Assembly: GCA_020912385.1 (NCBI GenBank)
Contig: CP087222.1
Span: 496,001-560,000, forward strand
DNA: 64,000 bases
Direction: 5' to 3'
From: Neofusicoccum parvum
Taxonomy: Eukaryota; Ascomycota; Dothideomycetes; Botryosphaeriales; Botryosphaeriaceae
Positions 1,882 through 35,060 of this stretch are shown here, piece by piece. The position numbers and the translations under genes were made by a program. Every line of letters begins with the position of its first letter. Positions within the stretch are counted from its first letter, which is position 1. Under the pieces are notes generated by a model, which had not been told where the DNA came from, made no database searches, and worked only from the letters and a program-made list of their open reading frames with translations.

Positions 1882-3761
1882 GGCGAGCCCAGAGACAGGT
1901 GAAGACGCAGGGTGAGGCAGAGGTCGAGCACAAAGGAAGGGCGAGAGTAGGCGGCGGAGGCGATGTTTGCACAGCGTGGAGTGAGCAGGCCAGAGCGGAC
2001 AACGGAAGGGCTGCCCGCTGCTTCCTTATGCGCGCGCCCGCAGTGCCTGACGCTTGCTCAGCCCCCGGTCACGTGCGGGCTACGCGTCATGGATGATCGC
2101 CGGCGCCAGCAGCGACAGGGCAACACCCGCCCGCTGCAGTCCGGATAGCCAGCCACCCCCCAAAATCCGCCGATGGCCGTTTCACGACGCGTTTCACCGC
2201 GCCCAGCGTCCCGCGCTGCCCTCGACCCGCCGGCGCTGCTGCTGCTCTCCTGAGCTCCTGGCGGGCCCGCCGCGAGCGTCCGCTGCGCTCCACCGCCTGG
2301 CGTCCTGCCCCGCTGCCGCGCGGTTGCACAGCAAAAGGCCCCAAATTGCGATGGGTCGGCATTCGTCAACCAGCACCCTCAGCCCTGCGCTATCCCCTGG
2401 CAGTGCCCCGTGCAGCCAAGCGTACGTGTTCTTATCCTTATCGCCGGACGCCTATCCGTTTCTTGTTGATGGCCCCAGCCCGCGAAGTCAAACTGCATAA
2501 CAAACTCAGCCTTTCCATCTCTCCGGCATGCCGCCGTCTCACCGTCGCGGATGCGGAAACACTCAGCGCTTGCCCGTCTTGATCCGCCAAGATCGCCAAC
2601 CTACCAAGCTTTCGGTGGCTGCGCAGTCGGTGTGTTTAACCGTCATGCACCCAACAACCACCCGACTCCTCCAAACTTTCGGCTGCAGCTTTTGTTCGTT
2701 CATTTCGCCGATCATGCCGTCGACTCGCATGCTCATCCTGTTGCCCAATGCCTGACGCGCCGCTTCTGCCTGTTACTCCCCACGCGCGATTTCGGCCGAC
2801 ATCTCCGACGGCGTTTCGGACATCAGCAGGGCGAGTCGGCTGCCACACCGTTTGATCGAATGATGCTACCCTCGCTGGAACCCAGGACAGCAGCTTTCCT
2901 GCAAAGCTTAGCAGGCCTCTACGGCGGCATGACGCCATGATTAATGCTTGCATTGCCATCTGTTTCAGCTTGGCATTGCCGTCTCACGGCACACTTCCAA
3001 CCTACAACGTCTGATCTTTCGGCAGGTGTCGCTTGTTCTTCCTTCACGCTCGACGAATCCAGGAGCTGATTGAGGCTCATCCGGTCTCACTTCCTCTCCG
3101 TAGGCTCGACTTGCTTCTGGCCGGGCCTATCCAGGTTGTCGATCACTACCTCTCACACTTGTGCGTCCATAGCCCGGGAGGCTCGAACAGCTGGAGAAAG
3201 AGGTACCGTATCATCATTCGGGCGTGACACATTCGAGTGACTGCTGTAAGAGTAATAATGATTTTTCCAGCCAGAGATATCTTCTCCCCAACTCTACATC
3301 GAGTAGGGCAGGTAGTGCGAAAAGACGCAGACTTGTACAAGGAGGCTTGAGAACCTGTCTACTGAGCTTCAACCGCCCCAGTATTGTGCAGCCGGCTTCG
3401 CTCAAGCAGACCATTCGTCGACTACCAAACAATGCCGACCCGATCTTGAACAAGGCATATCTGCATCGCATCTGAACATGATACCGCCGCAGTGCCAAGG
3501 GCGGCAGGATCCGCAGCGATACCTGCTTCAGCACGATCCCGCGCCACCCCCGTCGACAGAAAGAAAGGTCAGTCCAGCCGACATCACGAGCGCAAGAGGA
3601 AAGGTATGGTCGAGGTTCGTGTCCTCTGTACCTGCCAAGATTTCCGCGCAAGTGGCGCTGCCGGCAGACGTTGAGCACCCCCACCTACCAAAAAATCTTC
3701 GACCATCGACATCCTCGCGACTGACCACCACCAAGCATGATGCACGAGGGCAAAAAGATAT
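1882..3761. other. intergenic, no gene recognised (1.9 kb)
   Basis: This interval holds the upstream region of the minus-strand gene starting at 1881 and the downstream side of the tRNA. Several 60-150 codon open frames exist on both strands, but they overlap each other, have arginine/serine-rich random-looking composition and no recognisable domain. Confidence 0.45.
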
Positions 3762-3805
3762 TGACGAGGGTGGGACTCGAACCCACGAGGATTGCTCCAC
3801 TAGTA

Positions 3806-3834
3806 ATCCGCTTCGGAACTCCCTTGAGAGATGT
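3806..3834 (-). other. canonical anticodon-loop intron of tRNA-Leu(CAG)
   Basis: This 29-nt sequence lies between tRNA positions 37 and 38. That is the standard site cut by the eukaryotic tRNA splicing endonuclease. Its removal brings CTAGT and ACTAG together as a 5-bp anticodon stem around a 7-nt loop. Confidence 0.85.
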
Positions 3835-3846
3835 CCTGAAACTAGC

Positions 3847-3902
3847 CTGTTGATGTTGTTAGATGCGATGCTGCTGGAGGTGTGCTGTGCAGAGGAACTT
3901 AC
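3847..3902 (-). other. non-canonical intron in tRNA-Leu, spliceosomal-like
   Basis: The 56-nt insertion begins GTAAGT (3902-3897), has CTAAC at 3862-3858 and ends ACAG at 3847. These are the donor, branch-point and acceptor signals of the protein-gene introns in this window, and the length fits them too (45-60 nt is common here). It lies between tRNA positions 25/26, where eukaryotic tRNA endonuclease introns are not expected. Removing it restores the D-stem/G26/anticodon-stem junction; a one-base shift (TAAG...CAGG) gives the same product. That the spliceosome removes it is inference. Confidence 0.7.
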
Positions 3903-3927
3903 GCCATAACCACTCGGCCACCTCGCC

Positions 3928-24006: not shown

Positions 24007-27000
24007 TCACGCTCCGCCATGTCGTTGTACGCAATCCCACTCGAACTGTATTTGCACTACAGTTACCACAATGTGTCGATGGAGGTTCTCAAAATAAGAA
24101 GAAGCAAGCACAGGGTAAAGGAGAAAGGCTGGAGGTGGAATCAAGGATAGGGTGAACTTACAACTTTGCCATCGTCATCACCAGTGTACACCGTTTGTGC
24201 CATCGGCAAGATGCAAGAGATGGAGCCTGGGTAGTTCCCGCCGTCTTCGCGGCTCGGGTCGACATGGTTGAGGCGCTTGAGCAGTTCGAGAATCCACTCG
24301 CCGGTGCCGGGTTCGAGAGTCTTGTGCCAAACCTGTAAAGAAAAAAAAAGCGTCAGTCATATCCGGTATGTAGACACAGATTGATGGGAGCTTACATTGA
24401 CAACACCTCTGCGGTGACCCGTCAAGATGAGCTCCTTCTCCAGCCATTCATTCCCGACACCCTCATAGAAAGCGCATGAGTAGACCACATCGTCCGGATC
24501 GATGGTGTCGCAGACGTCCTGGTCCAGTAGGAGGCGGCCGTTAAGTGTGTACAGCATCAACCGAGATCCCGTGCAGAGCATGATATGTCCATTCAAGTTG
24601 TTGATCCTCGCGCAGCTGACCGGCGCATCGGCTTTGCCGATTCTTCTGACAAACTCCGATCTGTTCAGATCCCACAGGAAGACTTGTCCGCTTGAATCCG
24701 CAGAGAGGAACGTGCTGAATGCACGAGACGTCGCAAGAACACTCACGGGATGACGGTGTCCAAAAAAGCAGACCTTGGGAACGAGGTCGACTGTCTTGGA
24801 GTGGGCGATGACATTCCACACGGCGACGGTACAGTCGGTGCCCGCGGTGATGAGCGTCTTGCCGTCGACGAATGTAGCGCATGAGATCTGGCCTTGGTGC
24901 AGATGCTCCCAGAGGCCAATCAGCTTCTTGCTATCGGTTGCGTAGAACCGTACGCTGCCATCCGTGAAGCCCCATTCCATATATCGGTCGTAGCTTGGAG
25001 GGATATTGATCCTGAACGCCGCAGAGCAGAGGATGCGCTCTTGTTTAGGATGATAAGTCAAGCTTGACACAGACTCGTGTGCATCAAGAAGCGTGAACGG
25101 AAGCCGCGTCAGGGATTCGGCTGCGCTGTCGAGTCGCTTGGGCTTCTGCGGTTCACCACGAGGAGGATGAGGCTTCTGGAAGACCTGGTGAGGGGTCTGA
25201 CCAAAATTGTGGATAATACCGATTGTGGCCAGGCGCTCCACTGGATCGTCGATGGTGTCCAAGTCCTTCGCGCCGTGGTAGGACAGGTAGTGGAACACAT
25301 TGGTGGCCTCCACTGCAGCCTCGCCCTGTTGCTTGTACCCGAACACCAGATCGATCCATTTCTGGAGATTCTTGGTCACGTATGGACTCTCTAGAGCTTC
25401 TCTGTGCTTGGCAACGAAGATCTCAGGGTCTCCCTTCGCCCATGGAGGAAGGGCAACGTCGTTGATCTTCTCGCCCGTTACCTGCTTCTGGCCAAAATTG
25501 TAGCCATTCATGTTCTTGAGGAATTCGGGCAGGTAGAAAAACTCTGGAATCAGCTCACGGACGTCTGTCATGTTGTCTTTGGAGGCAGAGCTCCATGCCT
25601 TCTCAATCGAGTCGAACAAGCGGTCCGCATGATCAAAACTGCCTCCCTGAAGGAGAAGATAGGACTGTACGAATGGCTGCAGGCGGATGAGGTAGGAAGT
25701 GACAATCATTGCCGAGGAGTAGTGGGTGCCGTAATGGAATACAGGGTTCGTTCCGTCGCTCATCTCGGCAAAGGTCTGGTAACGTTCCTTAAACTCTGCC
25801 TCTCTCTGCAGCGTCTGGGCTCCCATGGGCTTGGACAGATCTCTGAAGGTCTTCGGGTCGTTCAGGTCCAACTCCTCGCTGGTATAGTCGGCCAGAATCC
25901 ATGGGAAAACAGGGTACTGTGTCAGGTCATTGAAAGTCCTGCCAGCCATGGTGTTGACGAGCATGAGGTAGTGAAAGTTGGAGATTTCACCCTTCAGCCA
26001 TTTCTTTGTTGCCGGGTTTTGAGCCATTGGATTGAAGGCGTTGACCCACTTGGAGGCCATCGACGGCGGGGCTTCTTCCGGGGTACGCAGGGACTCCAGC
26101 CGCCAAGCATCTTCCGACTGCAGGGCAGAAGGACTTGTCACTTGAGGAGCTCTAGACAGGAGTTTTGTGTGCAGTTCATCCCGGAGCTTAGGAGCGACCG
26201 CCGTAAGAAGGTAGCTTCGTCCATCGGTGAAGAAGATCTCGATCGCAACGTCGCGGAACAAGAAACGCCTCTTAGAGATGCTGATGACTTCCGGCCATTT
26301 CCAATGTCGCGTGGTTTGCTCGCCGTCAACCATCTGAGGCTTCCGTTCCGTTGCTTTCTTTCCGGAGATCATCTGGACGTAGTTATCTCGCTCTTCGGGA
26401 GGGGCTTGCCACACACGGATAATCTCTCCGTCGGACCGCTGAAAGAAGTTGTCCAACAGGTACAAGGAGTCTTTGCCCAGGATGAGCAAGCCCTCGCAAG
26501 CTTCCAGTCCCACGATTCGAGAGACATTAAAGACATGCTGTACCTGATCGCCTTGCTGCAGCGAGCGCATGACCTTTCGATTCTTATCCTCGAAACCATC
26601 CTCTCCCTCGTTCGGATCAGCGACAAACTCAAAGTCGTCCTCCGCATTCGAGTTTACGGACGACTGGCTGACAGAGCGGTTTCTGCCATTCTGTCCATTT
26701 GGATGGGCACTCGAAGGCGTAGCATTGGCAGCATCAGGAGTGGCAATTGTTGGGATATTCGTCATGAGGCTGAGTTTCGTCTTGGGGACAGCCTCAGAGT
26801 CTCTTCTTTTAGGCTGATAGTCATCATCTCGGCCTGTAGCTTTGTCTGGCAGAATTCGCATTCTCATCCTATTTCGTCCTTCGGTCTCGTCAAGTTGCCA
26901 TTTCGAGAACTCTTCCGACTCAAACAACGCACAGGGCTCCCGGAGTGACCGATCGAGTTTGTCTAATGCAGACGCGAGGAAAGTCAGGTTATCCTGCTGG

Positions 27001-30000
27001 TCCTGTTGTGCTCGCTGGTGTTTCAGGCGCTCAGCGGCGAATATATTGGCTCGCCAATGTGTTGTCGATACTTCGTGACGGTGCCAAGTGTTGTCTGCAG
27101 CTGCCTCTTCAGACTGCCATTGCTTCAGGCGTTCTCGACGCTTGCTGACTCTGTTCTTCGCGCTCTCCTCAGTCTTGCGGTTCTCGTCAACGACAAACTC
27201 TTCCCAAGACTTTGACATCGCGCCAAAGAACAAATTGTCCAATTCGCTGCGACGGTCGTCGACCCAGGCCAGGAAGGCATCATTGTCGAGCTCAGTAAGC
27301 TTCATGAAATCGGTGAAGAGCTTGCGGTCGTTGCTGGAGGTTGTCTGATTCAGCATCTGAGAGGTCTCCGCAGGCTTCTGCACAAGCATAAGCCTCCAGA
27401 AATCCGCAGCGGCGGCCCTCACGCGGGTGTCTCCGGAGACCAGCTTAGTGTAAAGAAGGTAGCACAAAAGCCGGAGATAGTTGCCTTCCAGATTCTCAGG
27501 AGAGAGGATGATCGTTTGCCAATATGTCATCTTGTGCAAGAACGCGATTGCCTCAGTCTCGTTATCCGGCTCATCCAGCTCGGACAGCCGGAGCAACGCG
27601 ACCCGGAAGAAGACCGTACGGATAGTGGAGATCGCTTGCGTGCAGAGTCGAACCCCCTTCAATTGAGCCACATCCGGGCGATGCAAGTAGTCCAGAACAG
27701 TTCCAATGAAATCAAGCAACGCTTCGGCACCATTCATAAACCATCCTTCGAAGACGGCTTCAGCCATGTGGAGCGTGTAGCGAGCAAGATTAGTAAGGAC
27801 TCTCGGTTCGGAGAGGAGCTCTTGGCGGAGCTGAAGCTCATTTGCGATCGTTTGCATGGTATGCAGGAGCACGTAGGATTCAAAGTAGGCTTGGTGTTCC
27901 TGAAAGCCCGGTGGAACTTTCAAGAACAGTCCAAATCCTGAGAAGTCCTTCTTGTGTAACAGCTGGTCCAGGAAAACGCCAATAACAAGCTCGAGCAAGG
28001 CTTGTACAACAGCATTGCCAACCTTCAGATCCACAGATCCTGACTTCTTGGGCGATAGGACAGTGTGCAACCGTGCAGAAGCTGCGGGATACTTGGCTTT
28101 GTCGGAGCTAATCAAGATGAACGAATTCCCTCGCCTCAAAGGCGTGGCTTTCGAAGCAGACGGGCTGCGCGGTGCCTCAATTGGTGTGGTGCGAACGATT
28201 GACGGTTGTGAATCTCCAGCACCCGAATGAGGATTGATGAGTACGTCCTGGCCTTCGAACGTCAATGCAGACCCGCGCGAATGAAGTTCCGTTTCTGCAG
28301 AGACGCTGTCGGACGTGACTATGACTGGGTAGAGGACGAAAAGAAGGTCCTGAATGTAGTTTGAGGCAACCGCAAACTCCCGGAAATGAGCGGACTTCAT
28401 GTGAACATCAGCGAGGAACTGAATGATAGTGTGCAGTATCGCTGCGTAGTCCACAAGCGTCTGCCTTGATGATGGTTGCTGCGGTTCTACGACTTGTCGA
28501 TGTCAGTCTCAAATTTCATCTTGTGATAGTGGGATGTATTTTACCTCGTGAGGCAAGCTCACTCTCCAATGACATGGAGCGTTTTCTGCCAGGCTCTTTG
28601 GTGAGTGGCGTAGACGATGCCTTGGAATTAGAGCCGTTCTCTCCCTGGCTTGTAGCTGGTCGGTCTAGTGCCTCCTGTTGCTTGACAACCACCCGGAGGC
28701 CAGTCTCAAGCATTGCGGTCATTGCTGGGAAAATGTCCGGATAAGCTATTGTGATCTGGCCACTAGAGGAGAAGGCATCCATCAAGTTGTAGAGATCAAA
28801 GTCCCTCTCGAAGCTGATTTTTCCGACATCGGCACCAAAGAGGATGGCAAAGCAAATGGTCCAGACAGGTGGTGTGTTCCACCAAGCCTTGAGCCTATGC
28901 TTCAAATTGGTAAAACCGCCATCTCTAGTGAATTTCTTAACGAAATGTGGGCCCTGGATTACCAGGAGACGAGCCAGTATCTGCATCGTGGGGACAATCA
29001 CGCGAGCATCGTTCTCGGCAAGAAGATACACCAGCCACTGGCCCAAATCAGCCATCTCATCCGACAAATCGAAGCAATGGCCTACCTTGTTGGTGACAGT
29101 CTTCGCAAAGCGTCGAATCTCTGTCGCGCTCGCATCATCACACAGGAAAGCTGCGTACGCTTCCAAAACCCTGATGCCCAGTTCCTTCTTGGATAATTTA
29201 TCCGATTCGGTCTGAAGATTTGGTGTCATAGGCCTTGTGGAAGGAGTAGAGTTGGGTAGCAATGGTTGCGTTGGGGCTCTTTTCAGTGGCCGTGCACTAC
29301 TGCTGGAACGCATCGGGCGATTAACCAGCGTTCTGCTCTCCTGCAGAGCAAAGGTGATGAAAAGTGCAATCGACCGAAGGATATCCGACGATACACTGCA
29401 CTTGAGAAGGGCCTTGAATGCATTGAGAAAATGAGGGAAAACTTCTTGTGTGAAGCTTTCCCCCTTCAGGGCGTCGAGAAGTCTCTTGATTATGCCTACG
29501 TATACATTAGAATTGTCAGAACAGAGAGTTTGTTTGGTACTTACGCATGCGAGTAAGACGTTTTGCGTTGAAGACATGGTATTTGCTGTCCTTGGCAAAG
29601 CATTCGAACTGCCGGTAATATAGCTTCTGAGTATCCGCTGAGCACTTCCGCCAAATGTCAAAGTCAATCAAGAGAGCCCTGTAGGCGAGAGGATTGATGA
29701 TCTTGGACTCCTGCGGTTTGTTCTCTTCAAAGCCAACAAACCCAAGGATGAGTTGCAGCAGTTCATAAGACAATGACTCGTGGTCAGGGTCGTCAATCTG
29801 CCCTGTTGTCGATCTGCCGAACACGGATCCTAGCCCAAGCTTGTCACGAAGAAGGGCAGCTAGAACCGCAAATCCATGTTCCCTCTCCATGGCCTCACTA
29901 TTTCTCCAGTTGTCATGGACCGATTCGAACATTACCTGGACGGCGATCATCAGAGCATTTCTCGTTGTGGCCAATTCGACGAGCTTCAGCCCAATGGCTG

Positions 30001-33210: not shown

Positions 33211-35060
33211 ATGAAGGCTGCCGCCTGCTTATCGCTGCTGCCCGTGCTGGCTTCAGCTTCCCCGGTCTTCAACACCGGCTCCATCCACAACGAGGCAGCG
33301 CCCGTCATCTCCTCGGTCAACGCCAAGGAGGTTCCGAACTCGTACATCATCAAGTTCAAGAAGCACGTCAAGCACGAGGATGCGACAGCCCACCACTCTT
33401 GGGTCCAGGAGATCCACTCGTCCAACGAGAACGAGAGGACCGAGCTGCGCAAGCGCTCGCAGTTCCCTCTCGCTGACGAGGTCTTCGAGGGCCTGAAGCA
33501 CACCTACAACGTCGCTGGCGGCTTCTTGGGCTACTCCGGCCACTTTGACGAGGAGGTCATCGAGCAGATCCGGAGACACCCTGATGTAAGTCTGCTGCAA
33601 CGTGCGACCGTCCGAAACCGGACACGTCCCTTGCGAGCCCATCGCACCACCAACACCCTCTCTTCTGTCGCTCGTTCTCCAGGCCAACAAGCGGTATCAT
33701 GTCGCTGTTGCATCTTCCCCTTGCCACGTGACGCATTCTGTTACGTCTCATCACGCCATACTGACGAGCTTCGTGCGTAGGTCGAGTACGTCGAGAGGGA
33801 CTCCGAGGTCCACACCCTGAAGGAGGACTACGAGGTCGAGAAGAACGCCCCCTGGGGTCTTGCCCGTATCTCCCACCGCGAGAGCCTTAGCTTCGGTACC
33901 TTCAGCAAATACTTGTATACTGCCGACGGTGGAGAGGGCGTCGATGTCTACGTCATTGACACTGGCACCAACACCGAGCACGTCGACTTTGAGGGTCGTG
34001 CTCACTGGGGCAAGACCATCCCCCAGGGTGATGTCGATGAGGACGGCAACGGCCACGGCACCCACTGCTCTGGCACTGTCGCTGGCAAGAAGTACGGTGT
34101 TGCCAAGAAGGCCAACGTCTACGCCGTCAAGGTCCTCCGCTCGAACGGCTCCGGCACCATGTCCGATGTCGTCAAGGGTGTCGAGTACGCTGCTGAGCAG
34201 CACTCAGAGCAGGTTGCCGCTGCCAAGACGGGCAAGGGCAAGAAGGGCTTCAAGGGTTCCGCTGCCAATATGAGTCTGGGTGGTGGCAAGTCTACCACTC
34301 TCGACCTTGCGGTCAACGCCGCTGTCGACGCTGGTATCCACTTCGCTGTCGCTGCCGGTAACGACAACGCCGACTCTTGCAGGTACTCTCCTGCTGGCGC
34401 CGAGAAGGCTGTCACCGTCGGTGCCTCCACTCTCGCTGACGAGCGTGCCTACTTCTCCAACTACGGCAAGTGCAACGACATCTTTGCCCCTGGCCTCAAC
34501 ATTCTTTCCACCTGGATCGGCAGCAAGTACGCTACGAACAAGATCTCGGGTACCTCGATGGCCTCTCCCCACATTGCCGGCCTCCTGGCCTACTACCTTT
34601 CTCTCCAGCCTGCCTCTGACTCCGCCTACTCTGTTGCGGAGATTACCCCGGCCAAGTTGAAGAAGCAGCTTATCTCCGTTGCCACTGAGGGTGCCCTGAC
34701 CGATGTCCCCAGCGACACCACCAACGTAAGTATCAGTCGCATCGAACTGTGTTACACATTTGCTAACCATTTTTGCAGGTCCTCGCCTGGAACGGCGGTG
34801 GCAAGTCCAACTACAGCGAGATCGTCTCTGACGGCGGCTACAAGGTTGGCTCCAAGTCGATTGACATCTCTCTCCCTTCGATGGAGGATATGGAGGCGGA
34901 GCTCGAGACCGTCGGCCACAAGGCGCACGCCGGCGCTGAGAAGCTTGAGTCCAAGATCGAGAAGCTCGCCGAGAAGTTCGAGGACTTTGTCGCGGACGAG
35001 ATGGAGGAGTTCTTCGAGGAGTTCAAGCACCACAGGGCTGCTCAGCGTGCCTCGATGTAA
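33211..35060 (+). CDS. pepC: vacuolar-type subtilisin-like serine protease (S8A, PepC/Prb1-like)
   Basis: Three exons: 33211-33585, 33781-34725, 34779-35060; 533 aa. Residues 1-17 are a signal peptide. An I9 inhibitor propeptide follows (SYIIKFKKHV...HPDVEYVERD). The S8 catalytic domain carries the triad Asp185 (VIDTGTN), His217 (GNGHGTHCSGTVAG) and Ser384 (SGTSMASPHIAG); the oxyanion-region AAGNDN is present. The C-terminal tail is highly charged and helical (ESKIEKLAEKFEDFVADEME), as in vacuolar cerevisin-type proteases, which are also major mould allergens (Alp2/Pen ch 18 group). It would mature in the vacuole and degrade proteins during autophagy and starvation. Intron 1 is long for this window (195 nt). 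The symbol is by family resemblance. Confidence 0.93.

Follow-up and report, generated by a model that had tools for sequence, protein, structure and literature searches.

At least 15 tRNA genes in a single fungal genome, representing eight isoacceptors, carry short introns of the spliceosomal type at six positions outside the usual place of tRNA introns. One of these genes lies in the window, that is, the whole 64,000-nucleotide stretch of Neofusicoccum parvum DNA analyzed here (contig C17, positions 496001-560000; the genome comprises 44 Mb in 18 contigs), where a tRNA-Leu(CAG) gene is interrupted by 56 nt. This insertion is very probably a U2-type spliceosomal intron in a gene transcribed by RNA polymerase III (Pol III), one of at least 15 such cases in the genome.

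The Leu(CAG) gene of the window is organized as follows, in window coordinates.

3762..3927, minus strand: tRNA-Leu(CAG) gene, class II, two introns, 166 nt (ARAGORN and pairing count)
3903..3927, minus strand: exon 1, positions 1-25, with the 3' end TTATGGC
3910..3920, minus strand: A box TGGCCGAGTGG, whole, upstream of the 56-nt intron
3847..3902, minus strand: spliceosomal-type intron at 25/26, 56 nt, GTAAGT ... CTAACAAC ... CAG (site and signals shared by the paralogs on C5 and C16)
3858..3862, minus strand: CTAAC, putative branch point of the 56-nt intron, with 12 nt of intron after the branch A
3835..3846, minus strand: exon 2, positions 26-37, containing the anticodon CAG
3806..3834, minus strand: canonical tRNA intron of the Sen type at 37/38, 29 nt (ARAGORN i(38,29) once the 56 nt are excised)
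3762..3805, minus strand: exon 3, positions 38-73, comprising the variable arm, the T arm and the 3' strand of the acceptor
3773..3783, minus strand: B box GGTTCGAGTCC, whole
3752..3756, minus strand: T5 run, the Pol III terminator of the gene

The initial annotation had described a complete class II tRNA-Leu(CAG) with intact A and B boxes, a T5 terminator and two introns, at 37/38 and 25/26, and the coordinates of the pieces bear this out, including the splice junction 3903/3846. The acceptor stem is paired in 7/7 positions and the T stem in 5/5. The GTAAGT, CTAAC and CAG signals claimed for the 56-nt intron are all present, but the distance of 15 nt given from CTAAC to the intron end needs correction: the motif is followed by 11 nt and the branch A by 12. 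No tRNA was found in the window by a first ARAGORN run or by Rfam at the gathering threshold. With introns allowed, ARAGORN called the gene Gly(CCC); after removal of the 56 nt, it was called Leu(CAG) with a 29-nt intron. An insertion at 25/26 that shares these signals and differs in its interior was detected in two more Leu(CAG) genes, on C5 and C16.

These three included, the following intron-bearing tRNA genes were identified across the genome.

C3 (L102): Ser(AGA), intron in the D loop, 16/18
C2 and C13 (L060, L126): two initiator Met genes, intron at 24/25
C4 and C1: two Trp genes, intron at 24/25
C17, C5 and C16: three Leu(CAG) genes, intron at 25/26
C3, C9 and C10: three Phe genes, intron at 30/31
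C16: Glu(UUC), intron at 30/31
C2 (L112) and C4 (L103): two Arg(CCU) genes, intron at 57/58, T loop
C4 (L132): Asp(GUC), intron at 59/60, T loop

The spliceosomal-type introns are thus located at 16/18, 24/25, 25/26, 30/31, 57/58 and 59/60, and none of them lies at the Sen position, 37/38. An additional 37/38 intron occurs in genes of six of the eight isoacceptors (Leu, Trp, Phe, Glu, Arg and Asp; assigned by eye in the C4 Trp and the Asp genes), while the initiator Met and Ser genes contain the spliceosomal-type intron only. The reading advanced for the window gene, that its tRNA needs two different splicing machineries, is supported and strengthened by its extension from one gene to 15, with eight isoacceptors and six positions, each intron having GT-AG ends, a branch motif and the length of an mRNA intron. 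An assembly error, which had been raised for the 56 nt, was considered unlikely, the format being common to 15 genes on ten contigs (C1-C5, C9, C10, C13, C16 and C17). Two of the genes on C3, the intron-bearing Ser(AGA) and Phe genes, are situated ∼0.6 kb apart, and on C4 (1074918-1075860) two Trp genes, one with and one without the intron, are ∼0.9 kb apart.

The genes were collected with several sequence patterns. An A-box pattern matching seven places yielded the Leu(CAG) genes on C5 and C16. A pattern of an A box followed by GTAWGT matched 26 places, versus 25 for the reversed pattern, and thus shows no enrichment by itself; six of the 26 places were tRNA genes, namely the three Leu genes, an initiator Met, a Trp and an odd Arg(CCU)-like gene. 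A second pattern combining an A box with a 5' site likewise showed no enrichment (158 places versus 229, with places given as far as C10). The places matched by further patterns were read in part, as 19 stretches (11 and 8), four of which came from the 158-place set; among the 11, L152-L156 were not tRNA genes and L150 was a degenerate Leu, and none of the other eight was a tRNA gene. A-box patterns free of any splice-signal requirement matched 60 places, of which 36, then three (L102, L107 and L108) and then eight were read, the rest being taken as known genes; the Asp gene came from the last eight. Together with the seven-place A-box pattern, these signal-free patterns match 14 of the 15 genes, and for those 14 the GT..AG format is therefore not built into the search. 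The Ser gene alone came from a scan that requires the signals, and for it the format is built in. The number of genes is a lower bound, as several isotypes lay outside the searches. Similarly, the tRNA inventory is incomplete, because the genome scan with RF00005 gave scores for 63 of its 860 candidates and recovered one of the 15 genes. The collections of viral and prokaryote contigs that were scanned gave no matches. MAFFT alignments of all families misplace the 3' halves, and only the Leu alignment was used.

In terms of intron format, the 15 genes are strikingly uniform. All of their introns begin with GT, end with AG and measure 52-65 nt. The 5' sites are GTAAGT in seven genes and one base off in the other eight (GTAAGC in three, GTAGGT in two, and GTACGT, GTTAGT and GTGAGT in one each); GTAAGT is the 5' splice site that pairs with U1. 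A branch motif of the form CTRAY is present in all 15 (CTAAC in 13, CTAAT and CTGAT in one each), and 10-15 nt of intron, in most cases 12, lie downstream of the branch A; in shuffled interiors CTRAY fell at the right place in 4.0%. Comparison was made with mRNA introns encoded in the window, as follows.

29496..29544, minus strand: mRNA intron of a BEACH-domain gene, 49 nt, GTAAGT..TCTAAT..TAG (gap in a homolog tblastn alignment, within 3 nt)
28487..28544, minus strand: second intron of the BEACH-domain gene, 58 nt, GTAAAA..CTGAC..TAG (by eye, between homology blocks)
24333..24395, minus strand: third intron of the BEACH-domain gene, 63 nt, GTAAGC..CTGAC..CAG (by eye, against the homolog)
34726..34778, plus strand: intron of a subtilisin-like gene, 53 nt, GTAAGT..GCTAAC..CAG (by eye, at a frame break)

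By length, the tRNA introns (52-65 nt) belong with these four (49-63 nt). Possible branch sites in the 49-, 53-, 58- and 63-nt mRNA introns are CTAAT (or CTGAC), CTAAC, CTGAC and CTGAC, at 11, 12, 16 and 20 nt, respectively. The likeness of the 56-nt intron to local mRNA introns, as originally claimed, holds for length and for the kind of signal, but not in full for the branch site: CTGAC is possible in three of the four mRNA introns, at 16-20 nt, in contrast to the nearly invariant CTAAC of the tRNA introns at 10-15 nt. Shapes of the form GT..CTRAY..AG numbered 17 in the window versus 5-13 in simulated sequence, a comparison unused as evidence.

The same format bears on whether these insertions are ectopic tRNA introns taken out by a Sen endonuclease that is less strict about its cutting sites, in the manner of red algae, nucleomorphs and archaea, their GT..AG look being incidental. 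Non-canonical introns are indeed known in archaea (25/26 included), nucleomorphs and Cyanidioschyzon, according to the part of the literature account available (PMC4090602). Anticodon-loop introns are also common in the present genome, with 43 ARAGORN calls. Among those 43 introns of other genes, however, GT..AG occurs in one (L129) and CTRAY near the end in two (L016 and L091), as opposed to both features in 15 of 15 here; the single GT..AG call, at L129, is interpreted as an Asp gene in which the boundary was misplaced. To our knowledge, Sen has no need of GT, CTAAC or AG, and a relaxed Sen alone would therefore not explain their presence. This account is accordingly judged highly improbable. 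A search for the 4-bp central helix of the bulge-helix-bulge (BHB) motif was without power, as it was negative both in the 13 genes tested and in six canonical controls. Among the other anticodon-loop introns, those of the Gly(GCC) genes L018, L019, L020, L026 and L131 are long (48-68 nt by ARAGORN), and L016 (C12:1306028-1306152, minus strand), called Leu(UAG) by ARAGORN, has a loop, TTAGCAC, that is Ala-like by reading, and an intron with tandem copies of TTCGAGTTAA.

Excision of the assigned introns restored recognizable tRNAs. The correct isotype and anticodon were called by ARAGORN in none of the 15 unspliced genes and in 14 of the 15 spliced forms. The exception was the Asp gene, the spliced form of which was called a tRNA with the four-base anticodon gtca instead of Asp; no choice among its 19 GT..AG pairs yielded Asp. 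When all GT..AG pairs 40-90 nt apart were compared (4-33 per gene), the assigned pair ranked top in 13 of 13 genes, Asp and Ser being outside this comparison. In the same 13 genes the excised segment was slid by up to 15 nt, and the assigned place was best or tied in 12. The exception was the Trp gene on C1, in which a shift of +7/+8 scored 108.9 versus 107.1; its boundary stands despite the sliding score, because it is fixed by an intron-free paralog.

The converse approach was an excise-and-call scan, in which every segment of the form GTNNGY..CTRAY..AG was cut out and ARAGORN rerun, over 166 sequences (326,856 bases with overlaps, the window included). The 304 candidate introns gave 16 improved tRNA calls, corresponding to 13 of the listed genes and three alternative Leu 3' ends, and contributed one new gene, Ser on C3. 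Reversed sequences provided 315 candidates and no calls. Among the matches listed, no place in the window appeared besides the Leu gene. Owing to its distance limit, the scan lost the Leu gene on C16 and the Phe gene on C9 at their true 3' ends.

Intron-free copies provide an empty site for all families except Leu. They include initiator Met L047 (C1), Trp L027 (C4), Phe L098 (C1) and L107 (C9), Glu L143 (C10), Asp L129, L131 and L134-L136, and Ser(AGA) L042-L044; in such copies the sequence is continuous across the junction and matches the predicted spliced form. For Arg, the empty site is supplied by the Arg-like gene L077, the T arm of which is uninterrupted. These copies fix the intron boundaries in all families other than Leu. 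The gene structure, the splice signals, the empty sites, the cloverleaf regained on excision and the preserved stems can all be read directly from the DNA.

L077 itself (G000:C10, ∼1506197-1506325, minus strand) is an Arg(CCU)-like gene with GTAAGT and CACTAAC after the GGTA of the D loop, and no AG at the expected resumption of the exon (TTCG|GCGC). It looks decayed, and may be a pseudogene, a gene whose splice site has been lost or a case of another kind.

The proportion of copies bearing an intron differs among the families. A DNA search with 3' exons gave 2 of 3 for initiator Met, 2 of 3 for Trp, 3 of 5 for Phe and 1 of 2 for Glu(UUC); among the copies seen, the share was 3 of 3 for Leu(CAG), 2 of 3 for Arg(CCU), 1 of 6 for Asp and 1 of 4 for Ser(AGA). 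These copy numbers are lower bounds, and the 3'-exon search overlooked two of the three genes resembling Arg(CCU). Such figures favor the rival reading that the intron-bearing copies are tRNA pseudogenes, or unexpressed copies, struck by insertions: the copies seen without an intron amount to 1/3 of initiator Met, 1/3 of Trp, 2/5 of Phe, 1/2 of Glu(UUC), 5/6 of Asp and 3/4 of Ser(AGA), and one Arg-like copy (L077) looks decayed. The Leu family argues otherwise. The pseudogene reading of the window gene had been tied to a supply of the anticodon by further Leu(CAG) genes that are intact; a genome search with the 3' half of the gene matched three places (a lower bound), and all three, as far as searched, contain the insertion. 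CTG accounts for 113 of the 422 Leu codons in six open reading frames of the window, not all of them confirmed genes. The Leu(CAG) genes are nevertheless not proven essential, because a tRNA-Leu(UAG), seen at L050, could read CTG through wobble.

The state of the genes also speaks against decay. Neither broken stems nor lost promoter elements, which would mark pseudogenes, were found. The acceptor (7/7) and T (5/5) stems are fully paired in 14 of the 14 genes counted, and by eye in Ser. Moreover, double changes that keep the stems paired separate related genes: three acceptor pairs between Leu C17 and Leu C16, three between initiator Met C2 and C1, one in Trp and none in Arg. Two structural versions of the initiator Met tRNA (L060 and L126 versus L047, with the three compensated pairs) thus seem to be kept in the genome. 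A run of at least four T within 30 nt follows 11 of the 14 genes counted, and Ser by eye; in the three intron-bearing Phe genes the T run lies at 45-47 nt, much as in the intron-free Phe genes (45 nt). The splice signals are intact in 15 of 15. In view of these features, an origin of the intron-bearing copies as pseudogenes or silent copies is considered highly unlikely, and the preferred reading remains that of spliceosomal introns in Pol III tRNA genes.

The intron interiors offer some indication of their history. The initiator Met genes on C2 and C13 are identical in 72 of 72 exon positions and retain the splice signals, whereas their intron interiors are 44% alike, versus 48% in shuffles. 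For Phe the interiors are 49-56% alike (shuffles, 49-52%), one of the three pairs standing out at the 3% level. Interiors exceed shuffles in Leu C17/C5 (66%), Leu C17/C16 (63%) and Trp (62%). The comparison of interiors with exons implies that the introns are either old, the exons having been kept alike, or partly separate insertions at the same site. Gain on more than one occasion is the best reading of these sequences.

The position of the introns relative to the internal promoter raises the question of which polymerase is involved. By reading, the A and B boxes are whole in 11 of the 15 genes; the B box is split by the intron in three (both Arg genes and Asp), and in Ser the intron cuts through the end of the A box. 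If the genes lay inside longer Pol II transcripts that underwent ordinary RNA splicing, with the tRNA as a by-product or a later use, both the split boxes of these four genes and the difficulty of an uncapped precursor would be removed. The whole boxes of the other 11 genes, together with T-run terminators in most, make this extremely unlikely. Within the intron of the C2 Arg gene (L112) there is a full B-box-like match, GTTCAAGTC, and the intron of the C4 Arg gene (L103) contains a match with one mismatch. As a speculation, GTTCAAGTC in the C2 Arg intron might stand in for the split B box.

Spliceosomal introns in Pol III genes thus remain the best explanation, and for their maturation the tRNAs probably depend on the mRNA splicing machine, in many cases together with the ordinary tRNA splicing enzyme. 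In the proposed pathway, Pol III would transcribe through the intron. The major spliceosome would then recognize GTAAGT (by U1), CTAAC (by U2) and AG, and the intron would leave as a lariat. Where a separate 37/38 intron is present, Sen endonuclease and tRNA ligase would remove it, and end processing and modification would come next. From the gene structures we infer transcription, removal by the spliceosome, the order of these steps and the function of the product. Several observations are counted against this explanation: all families but Leu include intron-free copies, the boxes are split in four genes, and exon 1 is short, 16-30 nt, in 12 of the 15. The same holds for the missing AG of L077, the four-base anticodon of the spliced Asp gene, the sliding score of Trp on C1, the lack of enrichment of the A-box patterns with a 5' site, and the CTGAC of the mRNA introns. 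In addition, the usual substrates of spliceosomes are capped transcripts of Pol II.

A precedent for splicing of a Pol III product exists in fission yeast. U6, a Pol III transcript, has an mRNA-type intron in Schizosaccharomyces pombe, and a Pol III transcript can therefore be spliced by the spliceosome, as the available part of the source describes (PMC10484740). The present introns resemble it as introns of spliceosomal format in Pol III transcripts; the S. pombe case differs, according to the same portion of that account, in concerning a single snRNA gene with an intron near the catalytic bases, thought to derive from reverse splicing, rather than 15 tRNA genes (PMC10484740). Canonical eukaryotic tRNA introns, removed by Sen and ligase, share with the present ones their location in nuclear tRNA genes but sit at 37/38 and follow no GT/CTAAC/AG rule (1/43 and 2/43, above), the present introns being elsewhere. 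Closer in position are the ectopic introns of the Guillardia nucleomorph, Cyanidioschyzon and crenarchaea, which likewise lie outside 37/38 and may number several per gene; tRNA-Pro of Pyrobaculum islandicum has an intron at 25/26 (both from the accessible sections of PMC4090602). In contrast to the present introns, those of the nucleomorph measure 3-24 nt and the archaeal ones are cut at BHB motifs, and the sections of these accounts available to us mention no spliceosomal signals (PMC4090602, PMC3978253, PMC4033280). In the available text on tRNAscan-SE 2.0, non-canonical introns are treated for archaea (PMC8450103), and the corresponding part of a review of budding-yeast genomes equates spliceosomal introns with introns of Pol II transcripts (PMC5499181).

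The tRNA introns also invite comparison with a phenomenon of the same fungal class. Repeated gain of spliceosomal introns is familiar in Dothideomycetes from introner-like elements, which occur as near-identical copies in protein genes. The likeness lies in repeated gain; unlike those near-identical elements, the tRNA intron interiors compared are 44-66% alike, and their hosts are tRNA genes. The initial annotation knew of no described nuclear fungal case, and literature searches, covering open-licence papers and no preprints, listed none that describes tRNA genes with spliceosomal introns.

Overall, the gene structures make it likely that spliceosomal introns have repeatedly entered nuclear tRNA genes of this fungal lineage, that the supply of Leu(CAG) and part of that of initiator Met, Trp, Phe, Glu(UUC), Arg(CCU), Asp(GUC) and Ser(AGA) matures via the spliceosome, mostly besides Sen, and that this class of tRNA intron has not been described before. 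The introns of nuclear tRNA genes and those of mRNAs are usually regarded as two separate worlds, each with enzymes of its own. If the present reading is true, translation capacity in this fungus would be coupled to the mRNA splicing machine, and some RNAs would need the cuts of two unrelated machines in order to work. If the introns are spliced as their signals suggest, the spliceosome would handle tRNA precursors that are made by Pol III, lack a cap and have first exons of ∼16-30 nt. Intron gain would, moreover, be displayed in host genes that have no reading frame, at sites marked by intron-free paralogs. The annotation of tRNA genes in such fungi would also be wrong, ARAGORN with introns allowed having misnamed or missed all 15 of the genes described here.
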